From Woeseiaceae bacterium (GTDB taxonomy: Bacteria > Pseudomonadota > Gammaproteobacteria > Steroidobacterales > Woeseiaceae): a stretch of DNA of 64,000 nt. This document shows, piece after piece, positions 8,367 to 25,771 of this stretch. Position 1 is the first letter of the stretch. Each line of letters opens with the position of its first letter. The translations under genes and the position numbers were made by a program. The notes under the pieces were generated by a model. The model saw only the letters and a program-made list of their open reading frames with translations, did not search any database and was not told the origin of the DNA. The stretch spans positions 1 through 64,000 of the forward strand of contig JAJFKP010000045.1 of assembly GCA_021773135.1 (NCBI GenBank), in the 5' to 3' direction.

Positions 8367-9944
8367 ATGAAAACTATTTCCGCTGACAGGCTCAAACCGC
8401 TGCTGACAGCAAACGATGAAATCGCATTCCTGGATGTGCGCGAACATGGACAATACGGTGAAGGTCATCCGTTTTTCAGTGTTCCGTTCCCCTACAGTCG
8501 ACTGGAAGCGCTGGCCCGAACGTTGTTGCCCGGCAAGCTTGCACATCTCGTTCTGCTGGACGACGCCGACGGTGTTGCCGAACGAGCCGCCGCGGTTCTT
8601 GAGTCGCTTGGCTACCGGAATGTCGCCATACTGGAGGGCGGTGTGCCCGCGTGGACCGAAGCCGGATTCACCTTGTACAAAGGTGTGAACGTAATTTCAA
8701 AAACGTACGGTGAGTTACTGGAGCATGCCGCGGACACGCCGAGATTGACTGCCAGTCAACTCGACGAGCTGCGTAAGAAGGACCCGTCCGTCGTCGTGCT
8801 GGACGGCAGAAGCCCCGCTGAATACCGCAAGATGTCGCTGCCGGAGGCGTTGTGCTGCCCGAATGCTGAATTGGGTTACCGCATCCAGTCACTTGTTCCG
8901 GATGATACGACGACGATTGTCATTAACTGCGCCGGCCGGACGCGATCGATTCTCGGCGCCGAAGGCCTCCGAATGTTGCACACCCGAAACCCGGTGTTTG
9001 CCCTGGAGAACGGCACGCAGGGCTGGCGCCTCGCCGGACTGGAGCTGATGCACGACGTTACACCGCAGGCACTTCCCGAGCCGGACGATGAGCAGTTGGA
9101 TGCAACAGCCAGAAGCGCCGAAGCGCTCATCAAATCGTGTCGATTAAGACTTGTCAGTGCAGAAACGCTGTCGGCCTGGCAGCGCGAAGCCGAGCGTACA
9201 ACCTACCTGCTGGACGTCAGGACCGAAGCCGAGTTTGATGCAGCCCACTGGCCAGGGGCACAGCACGCACCCGGCGGGCAGCTGGTGCAGGCAACCGATC
9301 AGTATGTTGCGGTCAGAAACGCGCGCCTTGTGTTGAGCGACAACAATCGCCTGCGCGCAGCCTCCACCGCAATTCGCCTGGAGGACATGGGTCATGACGT
9401 TTACCTGCTGGTTGTGGACGCTAGTTCCGGGCCATCCTCAGCCGGACACGAACCGCAGGGCGGGACGGCTACTTCGAGCGCTGCGAAATTTCCCGGCGTC
9501 AAGCAAACCCGGGACATGACCATTCTGGATGCATCGGACGGCATGTCGTTCCGCGGGGGACACATCGAGGGTGCCCGGTGGGTCACTCGAGCACGAATCG
9601 AGCAAACAGGACTCGAGCACGACGAGCAAATATTGTTGACCGGACAGGATAAGACGCTGATCTCGGGGGTTGCCGCAGAGCTCGAAAGTCGTGGATTCAC
9701 CAATGTGCAATGCGCGCCTGGCTCTGAGGAGATCTGGGCCGGTGCAGGCTACGATATTGTCGCCACGCCCGACGTACCATCGGACGAGGACTGCATTGAT
9801 TACCTGTTTTTCGTTCACGATCGGCATGACGGCAACCTGGATGCCGCGCGGCGTTATCTAAGCTGGGAAGTCGGCCTGGTCGATCAACTCGATGCGCAGG
9901 AACGATCCGTTCTGAATCCGCGCACGAAATTTACTCAGGAGTAA
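8367..9944 (+). CDS. Four-domain rhodanese-like sulfurtransferase with one catalytic cysteine
   Basis: A 525-residue cytoplasmic protein made of four rhodanese modules at about 1-105, 128-232, 255-350 and 385-470, with a C-terminal extension. Only the second has a sulfurtransferase loop, C-A-G-R-T-R-S at about 192-198. At the corresponding places the other three read L-D-D-A-D-G, L-S-D-N-N-R and L-T-G-Q-D-K, without cysteine, so they are probably binding or structural modules. Such proteins carry sulfane sulfur between donors and acceptors. It begins 9 nt after the dioxygenase and is followed 8 nt later by the lyase gene. Donor and acceptor are unknown. Confidence 0.9.
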   Translation: MKTISADRLKPLLTANDEIAFLDVREHGQYGEGHPFFSVPFPYSRLEALARTLLPGKLAHLVLLDDADGVAERAAAVLESLGYRNVAILEGGVPAWTEAGFTLYKGVNVISKTYGELLEHAADTPRLTASQLDELRKKDPSVVVLDGRSPAEYRKMSLPEALCCPNAELGYRIQSLVPDDTTTIVINCAGRTRSILGAEGLRMLHTRNPVFALENGTQGWRLAGLELMHDVTPQALPEPDDEQLDATARSAEALIKSCRLRLVSAETLSAWQREAERTTYLLDVRTEAEFDAAHWPGAQHAPGGQLVQATDQYVAVRNARLVLSDNNRLRAASTAIRLEDMGHDVYLLVVDASSGPSSAGHEPQGGTATSSAAKFPGVKQTRDMTILDASDGMSFRGGHIEGARWVTRARIEQTGLEHDEQILLTGQDKTLISGVAAELESRGFTNVQCAPGSEEIWAGAGYDIVATPDVPSDEDCIDYLFFVHDRHDGNLDAARRYLSWEVGLVDQLDAQERSVLNPRTKFTQE

Positions 9945-9952
9945 CCACGACG

Positions 9953-11113
9953 ATGCATCGAGAAACGAAGCTGCTGCACTATGGTCGCGGGACGCTTCCC
10001 ACTCCTGCCAACCCGCCCGTTGTGCGCGCTTCCACAATCTTGCACGACACCCTGGAAAGCTACGAAGAAACACTCCGCCGACGAAATGCCGACGACAGCG
10101 TGCTGTCATACGGCCGCCGCGGCACTACGACCGCGCACGCGCTCATGGCTGCAATCAATGATCTCGAGGGCGGTGACGGCTGCTGGTTGTTCCCATCGGG
10201 CGTCGCTGCGATAGCGACGACCTTGCAGGCTTATCTTCACCAGGGCGATCACCTGCTGCTCGCAGAAACGGCGTTTCATGCCACTCGCACCGTCTGTGAC
10301 CATTTTCTTAAGCCTAATGGCGTCCGGGTCGACACTATTCCGTGGGATGCGGCCGACCTGTCGCAATGGATCCGGCCCGAAACCAGGGCGATTTTCGTGG
10401 AGTCTCCTGGCTCAGATACGTTTGAAGTAATGAATCTTCCGGCGCTGTGTAAAAGTGCGCACGAACATGGCGCAATCGTGATTGCTGACAACACCTACGG
10501 CTCGGGCTGGCTCTATCAGCCGCTGCAGCTCGGCTGCGATGTGTCCATTATTGCCGGGACCAAATACCTCAGCGGTCACGCTGACGTCATGATGGGCGCG
10601 GTAACTGCGCGCGGCGCGGCCACGAGTGAGCTGCGACAAGCGGTATTGGCGTGTGGCCAGACGCTGGCACCGGACGAGGCCTATGCAACGCTACGGGGCA
10701 TGCGAACGATCAACCTGCGTATTGAACGCCATGAGGAAAATGCCCACGTGGTCGTCAACTGGTTTAAATCGCGCAAAGAAGTGGAGCGAGTGTTACACCC
10801 TGCCCTGGCAGAGCACCCGGGTCATGCGAGCTGGCAGCGTGACGCATCCGGAACGAACGGCCTGGTGACGGTTTTGTTCAATTCACGGGTGAATATTCGA
10901 GCCTTCCTGAACTCGCTGCAGCTCTTTGCGATCGGAAGTTCGTGGGGCGGTTTCGAAAGCCTCGCCAAGAAAGTGCAGCCAACGCGCATTCTAACGCAGG
11001 CCGGCATGGGAGATCTGAACAACGTCGTGCGCTTTCACATCGGGCTTGAACATGTCGCTGACCTTATCGACGATCTCGAAACGGCGCTTAATGCGGCAGT
11101 CGCTGCAAAGTAA
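9953..11113 (+). CDS. metC: Cystathionine beta-lyase-like PLP enzyme
   Basis: A 386-residue Cys/Met-metabolism PLP-dependent enzyme. The Schiff-base lysine is Lys204 in S-I-I-A-G-T-K-Y-L-S-G-H, and the usual Y-G-R-R-G-T segment near residue 53, E-S-P-G-S at about 150 and A-D-N-T-Y-G at about 178 are present. The N-terminal H-x-G-R-G pattern and the full length fit MetC, which releases homocysteine, pyruvate and ammonia from cystathionine, but the family also includes C-S lyases with wider substrates. As the last gene of the transporter-dioxygenase-rhodanese operon, a catabolic C-S lyase role on an imported thioether is plausible. The symbol marks family similarity, not proven function. Confidence 0.85.
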   Translation: MHRETKLLHYGRGTLPTPANPPVVRASTILHDTLESYEETLRRRNADDSVLSYGRRGTTTAHALMAAINDLEGGDGCWLFPSGVAAIATTLQAYLHQGDHLLLAETAFHATRTVCDHFLKPNGVRVDTIPWDAADLSQWIRPETRAIFVESPGSDTFEVMNLPALCKSAHEHGAIVIADNTYGSGWLYQPLQLGCDVSIIAGTKYLSGHADVMMGAVTARGAATSELRQAVLACGQTLAPDEAYATLRGMRTINLRIERHEENAHVVVNWFKSRKEVERVLHPALAEHPGHASWQRDASGTNGLVTVLFNSRVNIRAFLNSLQLFAIGSSWGGFESLAKKVQPTRILTQAGMGDLNNVVRFHIGLEHVADLIDDLETALNAAVAAK

Positions 11114-17912: not shown

Positions 17913-19322
17913 TTGAGCGCTGAAACCGACAATATTCCTGGCAAGGACAAACTCCGCATGCTGCCATCGATCGATCGGCTGTTGCTTCAGTCTGGCGGCG
18001 TTGTGGAAAAGTATGGCCACAGGGCGACTACCGTTGCGCTCCAGGAAGTTGTTCAGAATCGCCGTGAGCGGATTGTTTCCGGCCATCATGCGAGCACCGA
18101 TGAAGATTCCATCACACAGGCGGCCGAACGAATACTGGAAACCCGGGCGACCCCTGAAACCAGGCCTGTTTTCAATCTGACCGGCACCGTGCTGCACACG
18201 AATCTTGGGCGCGCAGTTCTGCCCGAGAAGGCCATTGCAGCAATTTCGTCTGCGGCGATGGATTACAGCAACCTCGAACTCAATCTTGCTACCGGTAAAC
18301 GGGGAGATCGGGAGAGCCATGTTGAAAGCCTTGTGTGCGAACTCACCGGTGCCGAAGCGGCGACCTTTGTCAACAACAATGCTGCGGCGGTTCTGCTTGT
18401 CCTTAACACGCTGGCAATGAATCGTGAGGTTCCGGTTTCCCGTGGTGAACTGGTGGAGATCGGCGGGTCTTTTCGCATTCCCGAGGTGATGCAGCGAGCC
18501 AACTGCACATTGATTGAAGTTGGCGCGACTAACAGGACACATATCAAAGATTTCCGTGATGCGATTAACGAGCAAACCGCGCTACTGATGAAAGTACACA
18601 CCAGCAATTACAAGATTGAGGGCTTCACGAAAGAAGTATCGATTTCAGAGCTTGCAAAACTGGCCGCCGAGTTCGAACTGCCGTTCGTAATGGATCTTGG
18701 TAGCGGCAGCCTGGTCGACTTTGGTCGCTTCGGTCTGCCGCACGAACCTACCGCGGCGCACATACTTTCACAGGGCGCAGACGTGATCACGTTCAGCGGG
18801 GACAAGTTACTCGGCGGCCCGCAGAGCGGATTGATCGCAGGCAGGGCGGATCTGATTGCCCGTATCAAGGCGAATCCGCTGAAGCGGGCATTGCGCCTGG
18901 ACAAAATGACGCTGGCTGGACTGACCGAGGTGCTGAAACTCTATCGCAATCCTGACGGACTCGAGCAGAACCTGCCAACGCTACGACACCTGACCCGGCC
19001 GGCGGAGCAAATTCGCCAACAGGCCGAACGAGTCGCACCAACAATTGCTGCAGTATTGGGTGAGCGGTATTGCGTGGAGGTTTGCGACGCAGCCAGCCAG
19101 ATTGGCAGCGGTTCTTTGCCGACCGAGACGATTCCCAGCAGCGCGATTGGAATTCGATCGGCCAACATCGGGGAAGACAACACACACTCAATTGCGGCTG
19201 CGTTTCGCGCGCTGCCAACGCCGGTCATCGGTCACACACGAAAGGGCAGCTTTATGCTCGATTTGCGCTGCCTCGATGATGAAGCGCGCTTCGTTGCCCA
19301 GCTGGGATCTCTGCGGATTTGA
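17913..19322 (+). CDS. selA: L-seryl-tRNA(Sec) selenium transferase SelA
   Basis: A 469-residue PLP enzyme, close to the E. coli protein in length and sequence. It converts Ser-tRNA(Sec) to Sec-tRNA(Sec) with selenophosphate. Diagnostic segments: L-T-G-T-V-L-H-T-N-L-G-R (about 89-100), N-N-N-A-A-A-V-L-L (about 154), the PLP lysine Lys298 in F-S-G-D-K-L-L-G-G-P, and S-Q-I-G-S-G-S-L-P near the end. Start taken as TTG 17913 because it gives the expected N-terminal tRNA-binding region; ATG 17959 is the next option. The stop overlaps the selB start. Confidence 0.97.
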   Translation: MSAETDNIPGKDKLRMLPSIDRLLLQSGGVVEKYGHRATTVALQEVVQNRRERIVSGHHASTDEDSITQAAERILETRATPETRPVFNLTGTVLHTNLGRAVLPEKAIAAISSAAMDYSNLELNLATGKRGDRESHVESLVCELTGAEAATFVNNNAAAVLLVLNTLAMNREVPVSRGELVEIGGSFRIPEVMQRANCTLIEVGATNRTHIKDFRDAINEQTALLMKVHTSNYKIEGFTKEVSISELAKLAAEFELPFVMDLGSGSLVDFGRFGLPHEPTAAHILSQGADVITFSGDKLLGGPQSGLIAGRADLIARIKANPLKRALRLDKMTLAGLTEVLKLYRNPDGLEQNLPTLRHLTRPAEQIRQQAERVAPTIAAVLGERYCVEVCDAASQIGSGSLPTETIPSSAIGIRSANIGEDNTHSIAAAFRALPTPVIGHTRKGSFMLDLRCLDDEARFVAQLGSLRI

Positions 19323-21235
19323 TCGTTGCTACGGCAGGTCATGTCGACCACGGCAAGACCGCATTGGTCAAAAACCTCACAGGCGTTGAGACAGACCGCC
19401 TGGAGGAAGAACAGCGCCGTGGCCTGTCGATTAACCTGGGCTATGCATACTGGCGACCGGACGAGCAGACTGTCGTCGGTTTTATCGACGTCCCCGGTCA
19501 TCGCCGGTTTATTAACAACATGATCTCCGGCATCAGTGGCATCGATCTTGGAATGCTGGTGGTTGCCGCCGATGATGGCCCCATGCCGCAAACCCTGGAG
19601 CACCTGCAGGTGATGCGCCTCCTTGGTGTGGAACACTATGTTCTTGTCGTCACCAAATGCGACCGCGCCGATAAGGCGACTATTCAACGGGCCTGCAGGA
19701 ATGCGTCTGCACTGTTGCCGGAAAAGACACCGATTCACAAGGTTTCCAACACCACGGGTGACGGCCTTGAAGAACTCAGGGCGGAACTGAAGCAGCGGGC
19801 ACGCAACTGGACTCAGCGAGCGGGGCGCGGTCACTTCAGAATGTCTATTGACCGTGTATTTCACCTGCAGGGCCGCGGCCCGGTCGTCACTGGCACAGTC
19901 GCATCGGGCTCCGTAACCAATGGCGAAAACCTCGTGCTCCAGCCACAGCAGAAAATCCTGCGTATACGCGGTATTCACACACAGGATGCGCCTGCATCGC
20001 TCGCCAGTGCGGGCGACCGATGCGCCCTCAATGTTTCGGGCGATATCCATAAAGATGACATTCTGCGCGGCGACTGGGTGACCGGCGAATGCTGCATCGG
20101 CGCAACGATGAGATTTGATACACAAATTCGTTTGTTACCGGATGCGGCTTTTCCGTTAAAGCATTTGTCGGACGTCAAGCTGCATATAGGCGCCAAGCAC
20201 CTCACAGCAAGACTGATACTGCTGCGCAGTGAGAACACTTCCGCGGCGCGTATTCAGCCGGGAGAAACCGCACTCGCACAGCTCGTCACCGACCGGCCAA
20301 TACTGTGTTGCCATGGTGACCGTTTCCTGTTGCGCGACCACGGAGAAACGGCAACGCTGGGTGGTGGCTTCGTGCTTGACCCGCAGGTACAAAAAGATCG
20401 CAAATCATCAGTCGCCCGACTACATTTCCTTGCGGCGATGAAACACGGTGATATCGAAGATGCAATTAGTGCCGCGCTACATGATGCGCATTGCACACTG
20501 GACTATGGTGCATTGCTGAGGTCATGGAACATTGATGCGGCGGATCGACCCGGCATGCACTTGCCCGGTATAGCGAGAATCCAGAGCCAACACACCGAGA
20601 TCTGGCTGGCCGAATCAAGATGGGCCGGTTTGAAGAAATCAGTTCTCGATACAATTATCACATTGCATCGCGACAACCCGAACGAAGCGGGATTCAAACC
20701 TTCGGTGGTCGCAAGCGCGGCTCTGCCGACTCGCAGCCAGCCCTTTTTTCAGCCCGCAATCGTCGCGCTAATGAAATCGGGCGATGTTCTCATAAATGAT
20801 AGCTTGCTGGTTGCAAAGGAAAATGCAGAGATTGCATCGAGTGACACGCACGAATGGTTAGTAGTGTCAGCCTGCCTGCAAAAACATGCACAACAGATTC
20901 CGACGTTGACGCAGCTGCAACAGGAATGCGGAATTGATCGCCAGACGCTGCTGCAGTGTATTGGTCGGGCCCAGCGCGAAGATAAATTAGTCAAGATTAA
21001 CGCCAAACGTTACGCGCTAACTTCGATCTTGAGGGAATGCGCTCAGGCCGCGCTGGATTTGACATCGGACCAGCCGGAGTTAACCGTTGCCAAATATCGC
21101 GATCACCTCGGCTGCGGCCGCAATATCGCTGTCGATATTCTCGAATATTTTGACGGCATTCGATTTACCCGCCGTGTGGGAGAAGCTCGTATAATATTGA
21201 AGCGAACGATGCCGGCCAGGTTTTTCAATGCCTGA
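19319..21235 (+). CDS. selB: Selenocysteine-specific elongation factor SelB
   Basis: A 638-residue GTPase. G1 is G-H-V-D-H-G-K-T (8-15), G3 D-V-P-G-H (about 60-64) and G4 T-K-C-D (about 117-120). EF-Tu-like domains follow, then winged-helix repeats in the C-terminal part (about 370-638) that bind the SECIS hairpin. SelB delivers Sec-tRNA(Sec) to UGA codons at the ribosome. TTG start overlapping the selA stop by 4 nt (ttga), so translation is coupled. The tRNA-Sec gene follows 7 nt after the stop. Its presence means the organism can recode UGA, which supports the two downstream selenoprotein calls. Confidence 0.97.
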
Positions 21236-21242
21236 AAACGAA

Positions 21243-21336
21243 GGAAGAGCGATGTCCCCGGTGGGGCGCCTGGTCTTCAAAACCAGCGAGGTGCATAGAA
21301 TGCGCCTGGTGGGTTCGACTCCTACCTCTTCCGCCA
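21243..21336 (+). tRNA. selC: tRNA-Sec (anticodon TCA)
   Basis: A 94-nt tRNA with encoded CCA that aligns with E. coli selC over its whole length. Anticodon stem ctggt/accag encloses the loop ctTCAaa, reading UGA. The long variable arm has a 7-bp stem (aggtgca/tgcgcct). The T loop is ttcgact and the discriminator G. The acceptor pairs as ggaagag/ctcttcc (7 bp) and the T stem as gtggg/cctac (5 bp with one G-U): 12 bp in total, one fewer than the bacterial 8+5. The gene is 1 nt shorter than E. coli selC, on the 3' acceptor side. It starts 7 nt after selB and is probably processed from the selAB transcript. Confidence 0.96.
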
Positions 21337-21360: not shown

Positions 21361-22056
21361 CTATTGGGCGTTAAGGAGTTCCCTGGCATAGGCTAAGACG
21401 GTCTCGGAATGGACCCGGACCTGGTAGCGCTCGACGAAAATCTTGCCGACGATCTCCTGATCCGGATTCAGCACATAGATGCCAGGATAAGGAAGGCCGT
21501 AATTCTCGTCCCCGGGGGCATACTCATCGTTGAGGATACCCAGCGACTGAAAACTTGAGGCGTCGATATCGGACAGAAACGGATAGTCGATAGAGCCGGC
21601 CTCAATGAAAGCCTGCTGCAATTCCGGAGAATCGTAGGTCATTGCGACCATGCCGATACCAGCCTTTTCAAATTCGGCCGTATATTCCTGCAGCTGCCCG
21701 AGCTGCCTTCTACAGAATGGTCACCAGTCAACCGAGCGCATGGCGATGAAGATCATGCCTTTATCGCGAATGAAGCGGTCTACGGTTGTGATCTCTTGAC
21801 CCTGATACATAGCCCGGATTGCCGGGAACTGCGCACCAACCTGGACACCGGGATTAAAAGCATCGGTAATTTCAGTGACGAACATGTTCGCAAATCTGTC
21901 CTCAACCGGCGCGCTTTGACTGGCCGCCGGCTCTGCCGATGGCGCAGCTGCCACTTCTTCGACTTGCGCCTGCTGCGCGCTTTGCCCACAGGCGGCCAGC
22001 GATGCAAGCAACATCGCTGCGAGTAATCGGTCGGATAATTTAGGTATCAGTTTCAA
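21361..22056 (-). CDS. Selenoprotein: redoxin-fold lipoprotein with Sec112 (in-frame TGA) in a U-x-x-C motif
   Basis: One 231-residue frame if TGA at 21721-21723 is read as selenocysteine. N-terminal lipobox L-A-A-C (Cys23) predicts a membrane-anchored periplasmic protein. A linker rich in Ala, Glu and Pro leads to a thioredoxin/AhpC-TSA-like domain (about 65-231). The recoded site reads S-V-D-W-U-P-F-C-R-R-Q-L: cysteine homologues have W-C-P-x-C here. Frame and family similarity continue on both sides (E-K-A-G-I-G-M-V-A-M-T, Y-P-G-I-Y-V-L-N-P after the TGA). A hairpin with a G-containing loop starts 15 nt after the UGA. It is convergent with selC and divergent from the second selenoprotein gene. 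Likely a thiol or peroxide reductase; the substrate is unknown. Termination at the TGA would leave a 111-residue product without the second half of the fold. Confidence 0.88.
21690..21706 (-). promoter_or_regulatory. Candidate bacterial SECIS hairpin of the redoxin selenoprotein
   Basis: On the coding strand a perfect 6-bp stem gcagct/agctgc encloses the 5-nt loop cgggc. The stem begins 15 nt after the UGA and the loop lies 21-25 nt after it, with G at loop position 2. Position, loop size and G match the general bacterial SECIS pattern bound by SelB. It lies inside the coding sequence, as expected for bacteria. Confidence 0.65.
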
Positions 22057-22227: not shown

Positions 22228-23358
22228 ATGATGCAGGCTTTCCGCTACTCACAATCCCCCTACTCGATTCGTGACGACTTGAGCGCCGCCTATCGTGCGT
22301 TCTGGTCGCGCCTGGCCAGTCCCGGCAGCTGGTGGACCGGTGCTGAGCGGGTGGCGATCGCGCAGGAAAGTCGTCACGCGGTTAAATGTCGATTCTGCGC
22401 AGAACGCAAAGAGGCTCTTTCTCCTTACAGCTTTGCTGGCGAACATGAACACGCCGGCACGCTGGACCCGCTGGTCGTGGACGCGATTCACCGCATCATT
22501 ACTGATCAAACGCGCATTACTCAGAGCTACGTCGACGACAACGCGGGCGAGGGCCTGAGCAAGGAACACTATGTGGAGCTGGCAGGCATCGTCGTGGTTA
22601 CCTTCAGTATCGACGAGTTCCACCGTGCGCTTGGCTTGCCGCTGGAACCGCTTCCCGATCCGCTAGCCGGCGAACCAACACACTACCGACCCGCGCATGC
22701 CGTGGCAGGCACGGGTTTCGTGCCAATGATTCCGGCCGACGGCAACGTCGGGCAGGAAGCTGATTTGTGGCCAGAGGGCGCCAACGCCAATGTGCTGCGA
22801 GCCTTCAGCGTGGTGCCCGACGCAGTGCGTGACTGGATGCTGGTGGGCAATGCCCAGTATCTGTCGATGGAAGGCATGCAAATCTTTGCCGGCGACACCG
22901 GTCGCTGCATCGACCGGATGCAGATAGAACTGGTGGCCGCCAGGGTTTCGTCGCACAACGAGTGCTTCTACTGAACTACCTCACATTCCATGATGCTCAG
23001 TTTGAGTGCCAAGACTACCGAGACAGCCGTCGATCTGCAGATGGTCAATGGCTCATCTGCAAGTGATGCGCAGGGAATCGCTCACGCCAATGAACTTGCC
23101 TCTTTTGCAGAAGCGATTGCACAGCGTGATGCTGCAAAGATCAAACGTACCAGGGACGCCTTAGCGGAAGTCGCCGGTGACGCAATCATGATTGACGCAG
23201 CTGCGGTTGCTGCCAACTTCCAGCGCATGGTGCGCATCGCGGATTCAATGGGCATACCGATCGATGACAAGAACGTTGAAGCGGGTGCGGGTATTCGCCA
23301 GGAACTGGAGTTGGGCCGCTTCGCTTCCGCACAGAATACGCCCAGCGCCAATCGTTGA
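22228..23358 (+). CDS. Selenoprotein: AhpD-like protein with Sec249 (in-frame TGA) in a C-x-x-U-x3-H motif
   Basis: One 376-residue frame if TGA at 22972-22974 is read as selenocysteine. The recoded site is N-E-C-F-Y-U-T-T-S-H: Cys246, Sec249 and His253 fall exactly on the C-x2-C-x3-H active site of the AhpD/carboxymuconolactone decarboxylase fold, where cysteine forms give C-F-Y-C-T-T-S-H. After the TGA the helical fold continues for 127 residues. The N-terminal half has another redox pair, C54-R-F-C57, so the protein appears to be two related modules. A candidate SECIS hairpin starts 20 nt after the UGA. AhpD-type proteins are peroxidases or thiol reductants with a resolving cysteine pair. 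Cytoplasmic, with no signal peptide. Start ATG 22228, with a second ATG next to it. Confidence 0.88.
22994..23008 (+). promoter_or_regulatory. Candidate bacterial SECIS hairpin of the AhpD-like selenoprotein
   Basis: Stem tgctca/tgagtg (four Watson-Crick pairs plus two G-U at the base) closing a 3-nt loop gtt. The stem begins 20 nt after the UGA and the loop sits 26-28 nt after it with G in first position, inside the bacterial SECIS window. Weaker than the partner gene's hairpin because of the G-U pairs and small loop. Confidence 0.5.
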
Positions 23359-24724: not shown

Positions 24725-25771
24725 CTATTCGGAGAATAGCAAAGTCGGGCCTGGTTCAAGTGTCAGCAGTTCGCCAATACAGATCAGATCCATTTCTTCA
24801 GCACGAACGCACTTCTCAAATTCACCCAGATCTTCCGGCGTGACCGCAACCAGCAGTCCCCCGCTTGTTTGCGGATCACACAGTAGTGCACGGTGCGCGT
24901 CTCCGGTCGATTGCATTTGTTCACCGTAGCTTGCGAAGTTACGCTCGGTGCCTCCGGGAATACACCCTTCTTTGATGTACAGATCCACGCCATCAATCCT
25001 CGGAATTTTTTCTATGTTCAGTCGTGCTCGTACATTGCTGCCCTCGCAGACCTCCAGAAGGTGGCCCGCGAGTCCGAAACCAGTGACGTCGGTCATCGCG
25101 CTTACCGCCCGGACACCGCCCAGTGCAGCACCGATGCGATTTGGCAGGCACATCCAGTCGCGCGCTACGCCGACATGCTCGTCATGCAGCATTTGCCTTT
25201 TCTCAGCGGTAGTCAGGATGCCTATACCCAGCGGCTTGGTCAGGAATAACAGGTCACCCGGTTGCGCACTATCATTGCGCTTCAGGTTTGCAAGCTTTAC
25301 TTCGCCTGTTACAGCGGCACCAAATATAGGTTCCGGAGAATCGATGCTGTGCCCGCCGGCCAGCCGGATCCCGGCATCGGCGCAGGCCTGACGTCCGCCG
25401 TCAACGACCGCGCTGGCGACCGCAGCATCCAGTTTGTCGGTTGGCCAACCAAGCACGGCTATGGCCAGCAGTGGGTAGCCGCCCATCGCATAGACATCGC
25501 TGATTGCATTGGTTACCGCAATGCGACCGAAATCAAACGGATCATCGACGATGGGCATGAAAAAATCGGTAGTGCTGATAACACCGCGCCCATCACCTAG
25601 GTCATAGACCGCGGCATCATCCCGCGTATCGTTGCCAACCAGCAGGCGCTCGTCCTTCTCAAGATGCAATCGGGACTGCAGAATGTCTGTCAGCATTGAC
25701 GGGCTGATTTTGCAGCCGCAGCCGGCACCGTGACTGTATTCCGTCAGCCTGACATTCGTGTTTGCGGGCAC
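24725..25771 (-). CDS. selD: Selenide, water dikinase SelD
   Basis: A 348-residue enzyme that makes selenophosphate from selenide and ATP for SelA. The N-terminal glycine-rich loop S-H-G-A-G-C-G-C-K carries the catalytic Cys18 (cysteine form, not selenocysteine) with Lys21. Further family blocks: [24 protein letters not shown] and [12 protein letters not shown] start. It begins 5 nt after the ppa stop, so it is transcribed with ppa. With selA, selB and selC it completes the selenocysteine pathway within 8 kb. Confidence 0.97.

Follow-up and report, generated by a model that had tools for sequence, protein, structure and literature searches.

Selenocysteine genes and two interrupted reading frames

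We analyzed a 64-kb window (positions 1 to 64,000 of contig JAJFKP010000045.1; Woeseiaceae bacterium, assembly GCA_021773135.1), which contains a set of selenocysteine (Sec) genes together with two reading frames that are each interrupted by a single TGA. The features are given below (window coordinates).

17913..19322, plus strand: selA, L-seryl-tRNA(Sec) selenium transferase (TIGR00474, 582 bits; cut-off, 268)
19319..21235, plus strand: selB, Sec-specific elongation factor (TIGR00475, 373 bits; cut-off, 242)
21242..21335, plus strand: selC, tRNA-Sec with anticodon TCA (ARAGORN; Rfam RF01852, 69.2 bits)
21361..22056, minus strand: seleno-redoxin gene, 231 residues, TTG start and TAG stop (homologues)
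21690..21706, minus strand: SECIS-like apical hairpin, GCAGCT-CGGGC-AGCTGC (comparative: 45 of 45 TGA genes, shuffle control, covariation)
21721..21723, minus strand: TGA codon 112, predicted to be read as Sec (homologues: TGA, 45; TGC or TGT, 48)
21988..22056, minus strand: predicted lipoprotein signal peptide, residues 1 to 23, MKLIPKLSDRLLAAMLLASLAAC, with lipobox L-A-A-C23 (Cys23 codon, 21990-21988)
22228..23358, plus strand: predicted second selenoprotein gene, AhpD-related CFYU protein, Sec249 (TGA, 22972-22974; NF041238, 471.6 bits; cut-off, 175)
24725..25771, minus strand: selD, selenophosphate synthetase (TIGR00476, 428 bits; cut-off, 125), with no in-frame TGA

Mechanical open reading frame calling divides the seleno-redoxin gene into pieces of 111 amino acids (21721-22056) and 96 amino acids (21361-21651). 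The initial annotation, which gave no strand, had joined the two same-frame pieces through one TGA; the minus strand does read through from 22056 to 21361, and the single in-frame TGA of this 231-residue frame is codon 112 (21723-21721). The codon lies in the context RSVDW-U-PFCRRQLGQL, giving the UxxC motif Sec112-Pro-Phe-Cys115. By eye, the ribosome-binding site upstream of the TTG start is weak; the start itself is supported by the aligned ATG start of the L004/L039 relative. The selA-selB-selC run is convergent with the gene, and selC ends 25 bp from its stop codon, in agreement with the initial placement of selAB and selC directly beside it.

The second interrupted frame (22228-23358) is divergent from the seleno-redoxin gene and is split by one TGA at codon 249 (CFY-U-TTSH). 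It matches a model of alkylhydroperoxidase-related (seleno)proteins, a known family, and in L039 and L053 the homologues located close to the seleno-redoxin gene keep this TGA. A GTT-loop hairpin of weak energy, also kept in L039 and L053, is located 25 nt past this TGA. Inspection by eye of the open reading frame list revealed no comparable TGA join elsewhere in the window.

Two other genomes carry additional copies or parts of Sec genes. In L039, a Woeseia metagenome-assembled genome (MAG; Woeseiaceae), the minus strand at 9935-10017 holds a truncated tRNA-Sec gene that retains just its 3' part; the fragment is near-identical to the window selC and lacks the 5' acceptor arm. A complete tRNA-Sec is present on another contig (G011:C175), apparently of the same MAG. 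The partial copy may have been left behind by an integration event in selC. The genome of L036 (G023:C57, 2000-18799) has a pair of tRNA-Sec genes separated by about 8.5 kb on a single contig, the first of them outside L036, as well as two selB copies whose starts are 92% and 74% identical to the window selB.

Comparative evidence for Sec insertion at codon 112

We compared the gene with its homologues in related genomes. A search of 99 related genomes yielded four TGA homologues (57, 55, 54, and 36% identity) and several Cys homologues (35 to 38% identity). A single-sequence scan of genome contigs for the seleno-redoxin returned no match, and an alignment-based scan gave 80 loci. Among 93 nonduplicate homologues, the codon-112 column contained TGA in 45 and TGC or TGT in 48, with no other codon, which bears out the expectation of Cys at this position in homologues; extra stops, which had also been raised as a check, were not seen in the homologues. 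In a 58-member tree (a quick tree without bootstrap, from which the codon-112 column was excluded), all 19 rows of the starred clade that includes the window carried TGA, and at least three Sec/Cys changes were needed by parsimony over the whole set. The nearest named relative is the Woeseia MAG L039. Pseudogene formation, frameshift, and sequencing error were rejected on the basis of the conserved TGA/Cys column.

An assembly or sequencing error that replaced TGC or TGT with TGA deserves mention because many of the relatives are MAGs. However, the TGA is found in 45 separate records, and Candidatus Litorirhabdus singularis IMCC14734 (L058), which is a named strain, is among the independent assemblies that agree. 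The hairpin described below also tracks the TGA. We consider such an error extremely improbable. One TGA member, L057, comes from a MAG contig recorded as Klebsiella pneumoniae and groups with marine gammaproteobacterial sequences; the species name on this record is probably wrong.

The hairpin downstream of codon 112 has a 6-bp stem and a 5-nt loop (CGGGC) with G at loop position 2, and the loop starts 20 nt past the TGA. This agrees with the published bacterial SECIS geometry (stem, 4 to 16 bp; loop, 3 to 9 nt; G in the first two loop positions; 16 to 37 nt from the UGA [PMC13188914]). All 45 TGA genes had the full stem, at an identical distance from the TGA, compared with 3 of the 48 Cys genes (6%; synonymous shuffling expects 5%). 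Synonymous shuffling of the TGA genes, which holds the peptide constant, gave the full stem in 17% on average and at most 36% (1,000 shuffles), a comparison to be read with the relatedness, and hence nonindependence, of the 45 genes in mind. Given 45 of 45 against 17%, the hairpin is not due to chance, and the shuffles also rule out that it arises simply from encoding the QLxxL peptide. In 22 diverse TGA genes, 100% of the stem cells were standard pairs (slid controls, ≤48.5% paired), and three of the six stem pairs (pairs 1, 4, and 5) exhibited compensatory changes. The loops observed (CGTGC, CGGGC, GGTTC, GGTCC, CGTGA, GGTCG, and CGTGG) each have G within the first two positions. The 6-bp hairpin with a G-containing loop at the correct distance, as originally read from the window, is thus shared by every TGA gene and covaries.

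Regarding folding energy, the published bacterial SECIS limit is ≤−7.5 kcal/mol (PMC13188914); the isolated window hairpin has −7.5 kcal/mol, and the 42-nt region has −10.8 kcal/mol, the latter in another fold. Folded alone, the window RNA has a different, longer helix as its minimum-energy structure, and the mean pair probability of the conserved hairpin is 0.21. Given that this competing helix does not covary and is disrupted in many of the relatives, it was rejected, and the conserved hairpin was taken as the functional form. The whole-region folding energy (mean z, −0.76) was uninformative by itself, and Rfam contained no credible match for the hairpin. On comparative evidence, it is close to certain that the conserved hairpin would serve as a SECIS element.

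Finally, tRNA-Sec genes (called at >60 bits, our own threshold; other long tRNAs score near 50) were present in 24 of the 28 TGA-form genomes versus 4 of the 26 Cys-form genomes (Fisher P = 3e-7). The assembly sizes of the four TGA-form genomes without tRNA-Sec range from 1.8 to 3.3 Mb. The four Cys-form genomes with tRNA-Sec are of the Pseudohongiella type, in which sister lineages carry the TGA form. Could TGA-112 nevertheless be a true stop, in a pseudogene or between two separate genes? TGA is a stop in table 11 and both halves are open frames, but the codon is retained across 45 diverse homologues, within conserved sequence on either side, and the remaining homologues have Cys; both the hairpin and tRNA-Sec are associated with the TGA form. 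We consider a true stop very improbable. That 22056-21361 is one selenoprotein gene in which TGA-112 is recoded as Sec is, as judged from these sequence comparisons, close to certain.

The Pseudohongiella-type lineages include Cys forms (L062, L067, L071, and L077) that are sisters of Sec forms (L075, L113, and L115). The genomes of L062, L071, and L077 retain tRNA-Sec. These Cys genes have a hairpin at the same place (5 to 7 bp; loop GCAGC or GCAAC), possibly a relic of a lost SECIS.

Fold, redox center, and relation to known families

The window protein matches both AhpC-TSA (PF00578; 67.6 bits; gathering threshold, 26) and Redoxin (PF08534; 48.4 bits; E = 1e-12), with the domain spanning residues 72 to 204, and all 58 aligned members likewise match both models. 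The AlphaFold2 model (pLDDT, 93.8) had its best structural matches to Bcp and AhpE peroxiredoxins (Z, ~20). When profiles were aligned, Sec112 coincided with the first Cys of the ResA WCxxC motif and with the Ser of Bcp, and Cys115 coincided with the Bcp peroxidatic Cys. The classical peroxiredoxin motif PxxxT/SxxC is absent, with Ser108 in place of Pro and Sec112 in place of Thr/Ser; these substitutions leave a thioredoxin-like UxxC center on a peroxiredoxin fold.

Several known systems resemble this protein. The ResA/TlpA envelope oxidoreductases share W-C/U-x-x-C, export, and frequent membrane anchoring with it, but the window protein is closer to peroxiredoxins in sequence and fold and missed the cut-off of the ResA model. 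The Bcp/PrxQ and AhpE peroxiredoxins have the same fold, with Cys115 on the peroxidatic Cys; the window protein differs from them in lacking PxxxTxxC and in being exported. No NCBIfam model reached its cut-off for the window protein. The top model, SelL-related NF040769, describes a peroxiredoxin-like fold and matched partially over the motif region (33.2 bits; cut-off, 120), and SelL family identity was rejected on this score. SelL has UxxU, while the window protein has UxxC.

The closest known class is that of the Prx-like UxxC selenoproteins, described in 2005 from the Sargasso Sea as having a thioredoxin-like UxxC on a peroxiredoxin fold (PMC1088965) and later listed as "Prx-like 1" (PMC2398784) and under PF00578 with UxxC (PMC13188914, Table 1); the same table lists a UxxC redoxin family of PF08534. 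Prx/Trx-type seleno-redoxins had been called a known class from the outset, and these reports agree. The window protein shares with the PF00578 class the AhpC-TSA domain, a single Sec in UxxC, abundant Cys homologues, a marine setting, and a bacterial SECIS; with the PF08534 family it shares UxxC and a domain match, but its PF00578 score is higher. Placed by domain and motif, it fits the description of the Prx-like UxxC class. The surveys searched do not mention a lipoprotein form of these selenoproteins (limited literature search). A limited search for papers on Woeseia or lipobox selenoproteins found none, and a broader one returned only unrelated mammalian papers. The class is already known, and it is mainly the lipid-anchor signal on its own small branch that is unusual.

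Export, lipid anchoring, and proposed function

The N terminus of the window protein is MKLIPKLSDRLLAAMLLASLAAC-GQ, and that of the Woeseia relative is MHLAKTSFDRVLALMLLTAVAAC-DS. The window sequence has the bacterial lipoprotein pattern of a basic n-region, a hydrophobic core, and a lipobox ending in Cys23, as assigned by a pattern test. In E. coli, the residue after the acylated Cys directs the membrane destination; here it is Gly, and in the relative it is Asp, a difference that may send the two proteins to different membranes. By the same pattern test, only 2 of the 45 TGA genes (the window gene and L039) have a lipobox, and the others have, by eye, cleavable signal peptides or uncleaved N-terminal hydrophobic anchors. 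Facing the periplasm is thus general among these proteins, and lipid anchoring is not. The lipobox from which an envelope lipoprotein had been predicted was confirmed, but it is peculiar to the window and one close relative. Export of the seleno-redoxin to the envelope is very likely, and lipid anchoring at Cys23 in the window species is, from the pattern, probable. For Sec insertion at codon 112 together with export, our main reading, we estimate a probability of about 0.95.

We propose that SelB with Sec-tRNA would bind the hairpin 20 nt past UGA-112 and insert Sec, yielding a full-length selenoprotein that would be exported via the lipoprotein signal peptide and lipid anchored at Cys23. Sec112, the presumed nucleophile, would then attack an oxidized substrate, most likely a disulfide and otherwise a peroxide; Cys115 would resolve the Sec112 intermediate, forming a selenenylsulfide; and a reductant in the envelope, for example the DsbD of this genome, would regenerate the Sec112/Cys115 pair. 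Redox catalysis by this pair is likely from the fold and the motif. The genome encodes one DsbD-type protein, a plausible electron source for the seleno-redoxin.

The substrate is where two activities compete. The protein may instead reduce hydroperoxides through Sec112, or through Cys115 at the peroxidatic position, and so be an envelope thiol peroxidase that is perhaps paired with the AhpD-related selenoprotein in peroxide defense. The peroxiredoxin fold, the Bcp and AhpE peroxidases as nearest solved relatives, and the alignment of Cys115 with the peroxidatic Cys all suit this activity, as does the adjoining divergent AhpD-related gene, a pair of this kind having been reported in 2008 (PMC2398784). 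However, PxxxTxxC is lost (Ser108 for Pro and Sec112 for Thr), WUPFC is thioredoxin-like, and the AhpD-related neighbor has no export signal evident by eye, so that the compartments may differ. On balance, a peroxidase is a serious candidate at somewhat less than even odds, and we favor an envelope thiol-disulfide oxidoreductase, to which we give a little better than an even chance. Cooperation of the seleno-redoxin with the AhpD-related selenoprotein is possible only, as judged from gene position.

Within the clade of the window, no conserved gene neighborhood was found except for the Sec genes in the closest relatives. A second TGA clade (L065, L066, L089, L093, L097, L099, L103, L112, and L117) has a TRAP transporter set about 0.3 to 3 kb downstream on the same strand, consisting of a T-component lipoprotein (PF16811), DctP, DctQ (tested in L065), and a probable DctM.

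A broader interpretation would make these proteins a distinct gammaproteobacterial family of exported seleno-redoxins, as yet without a name; one Woeseia-type branch would have become lipid anchored and would team up with the neighboring AhpD-related selenoprotein in a selenium-dependent unit of peroxide or disulfide defense. This interpretation seems to us rather unlikely. The clean Sec/Cys pairs, including the sister Pseudohongiella lineages, are suited to the study of Sec gain and loss, and the window seleno-redoxin offers a predicted lipid-anchored selenoprotein that is open to simple testing. Given that gene callers split or drop such genes, envelope selenoenzymes of marine-type gammaproteobacteria may escape annotation.
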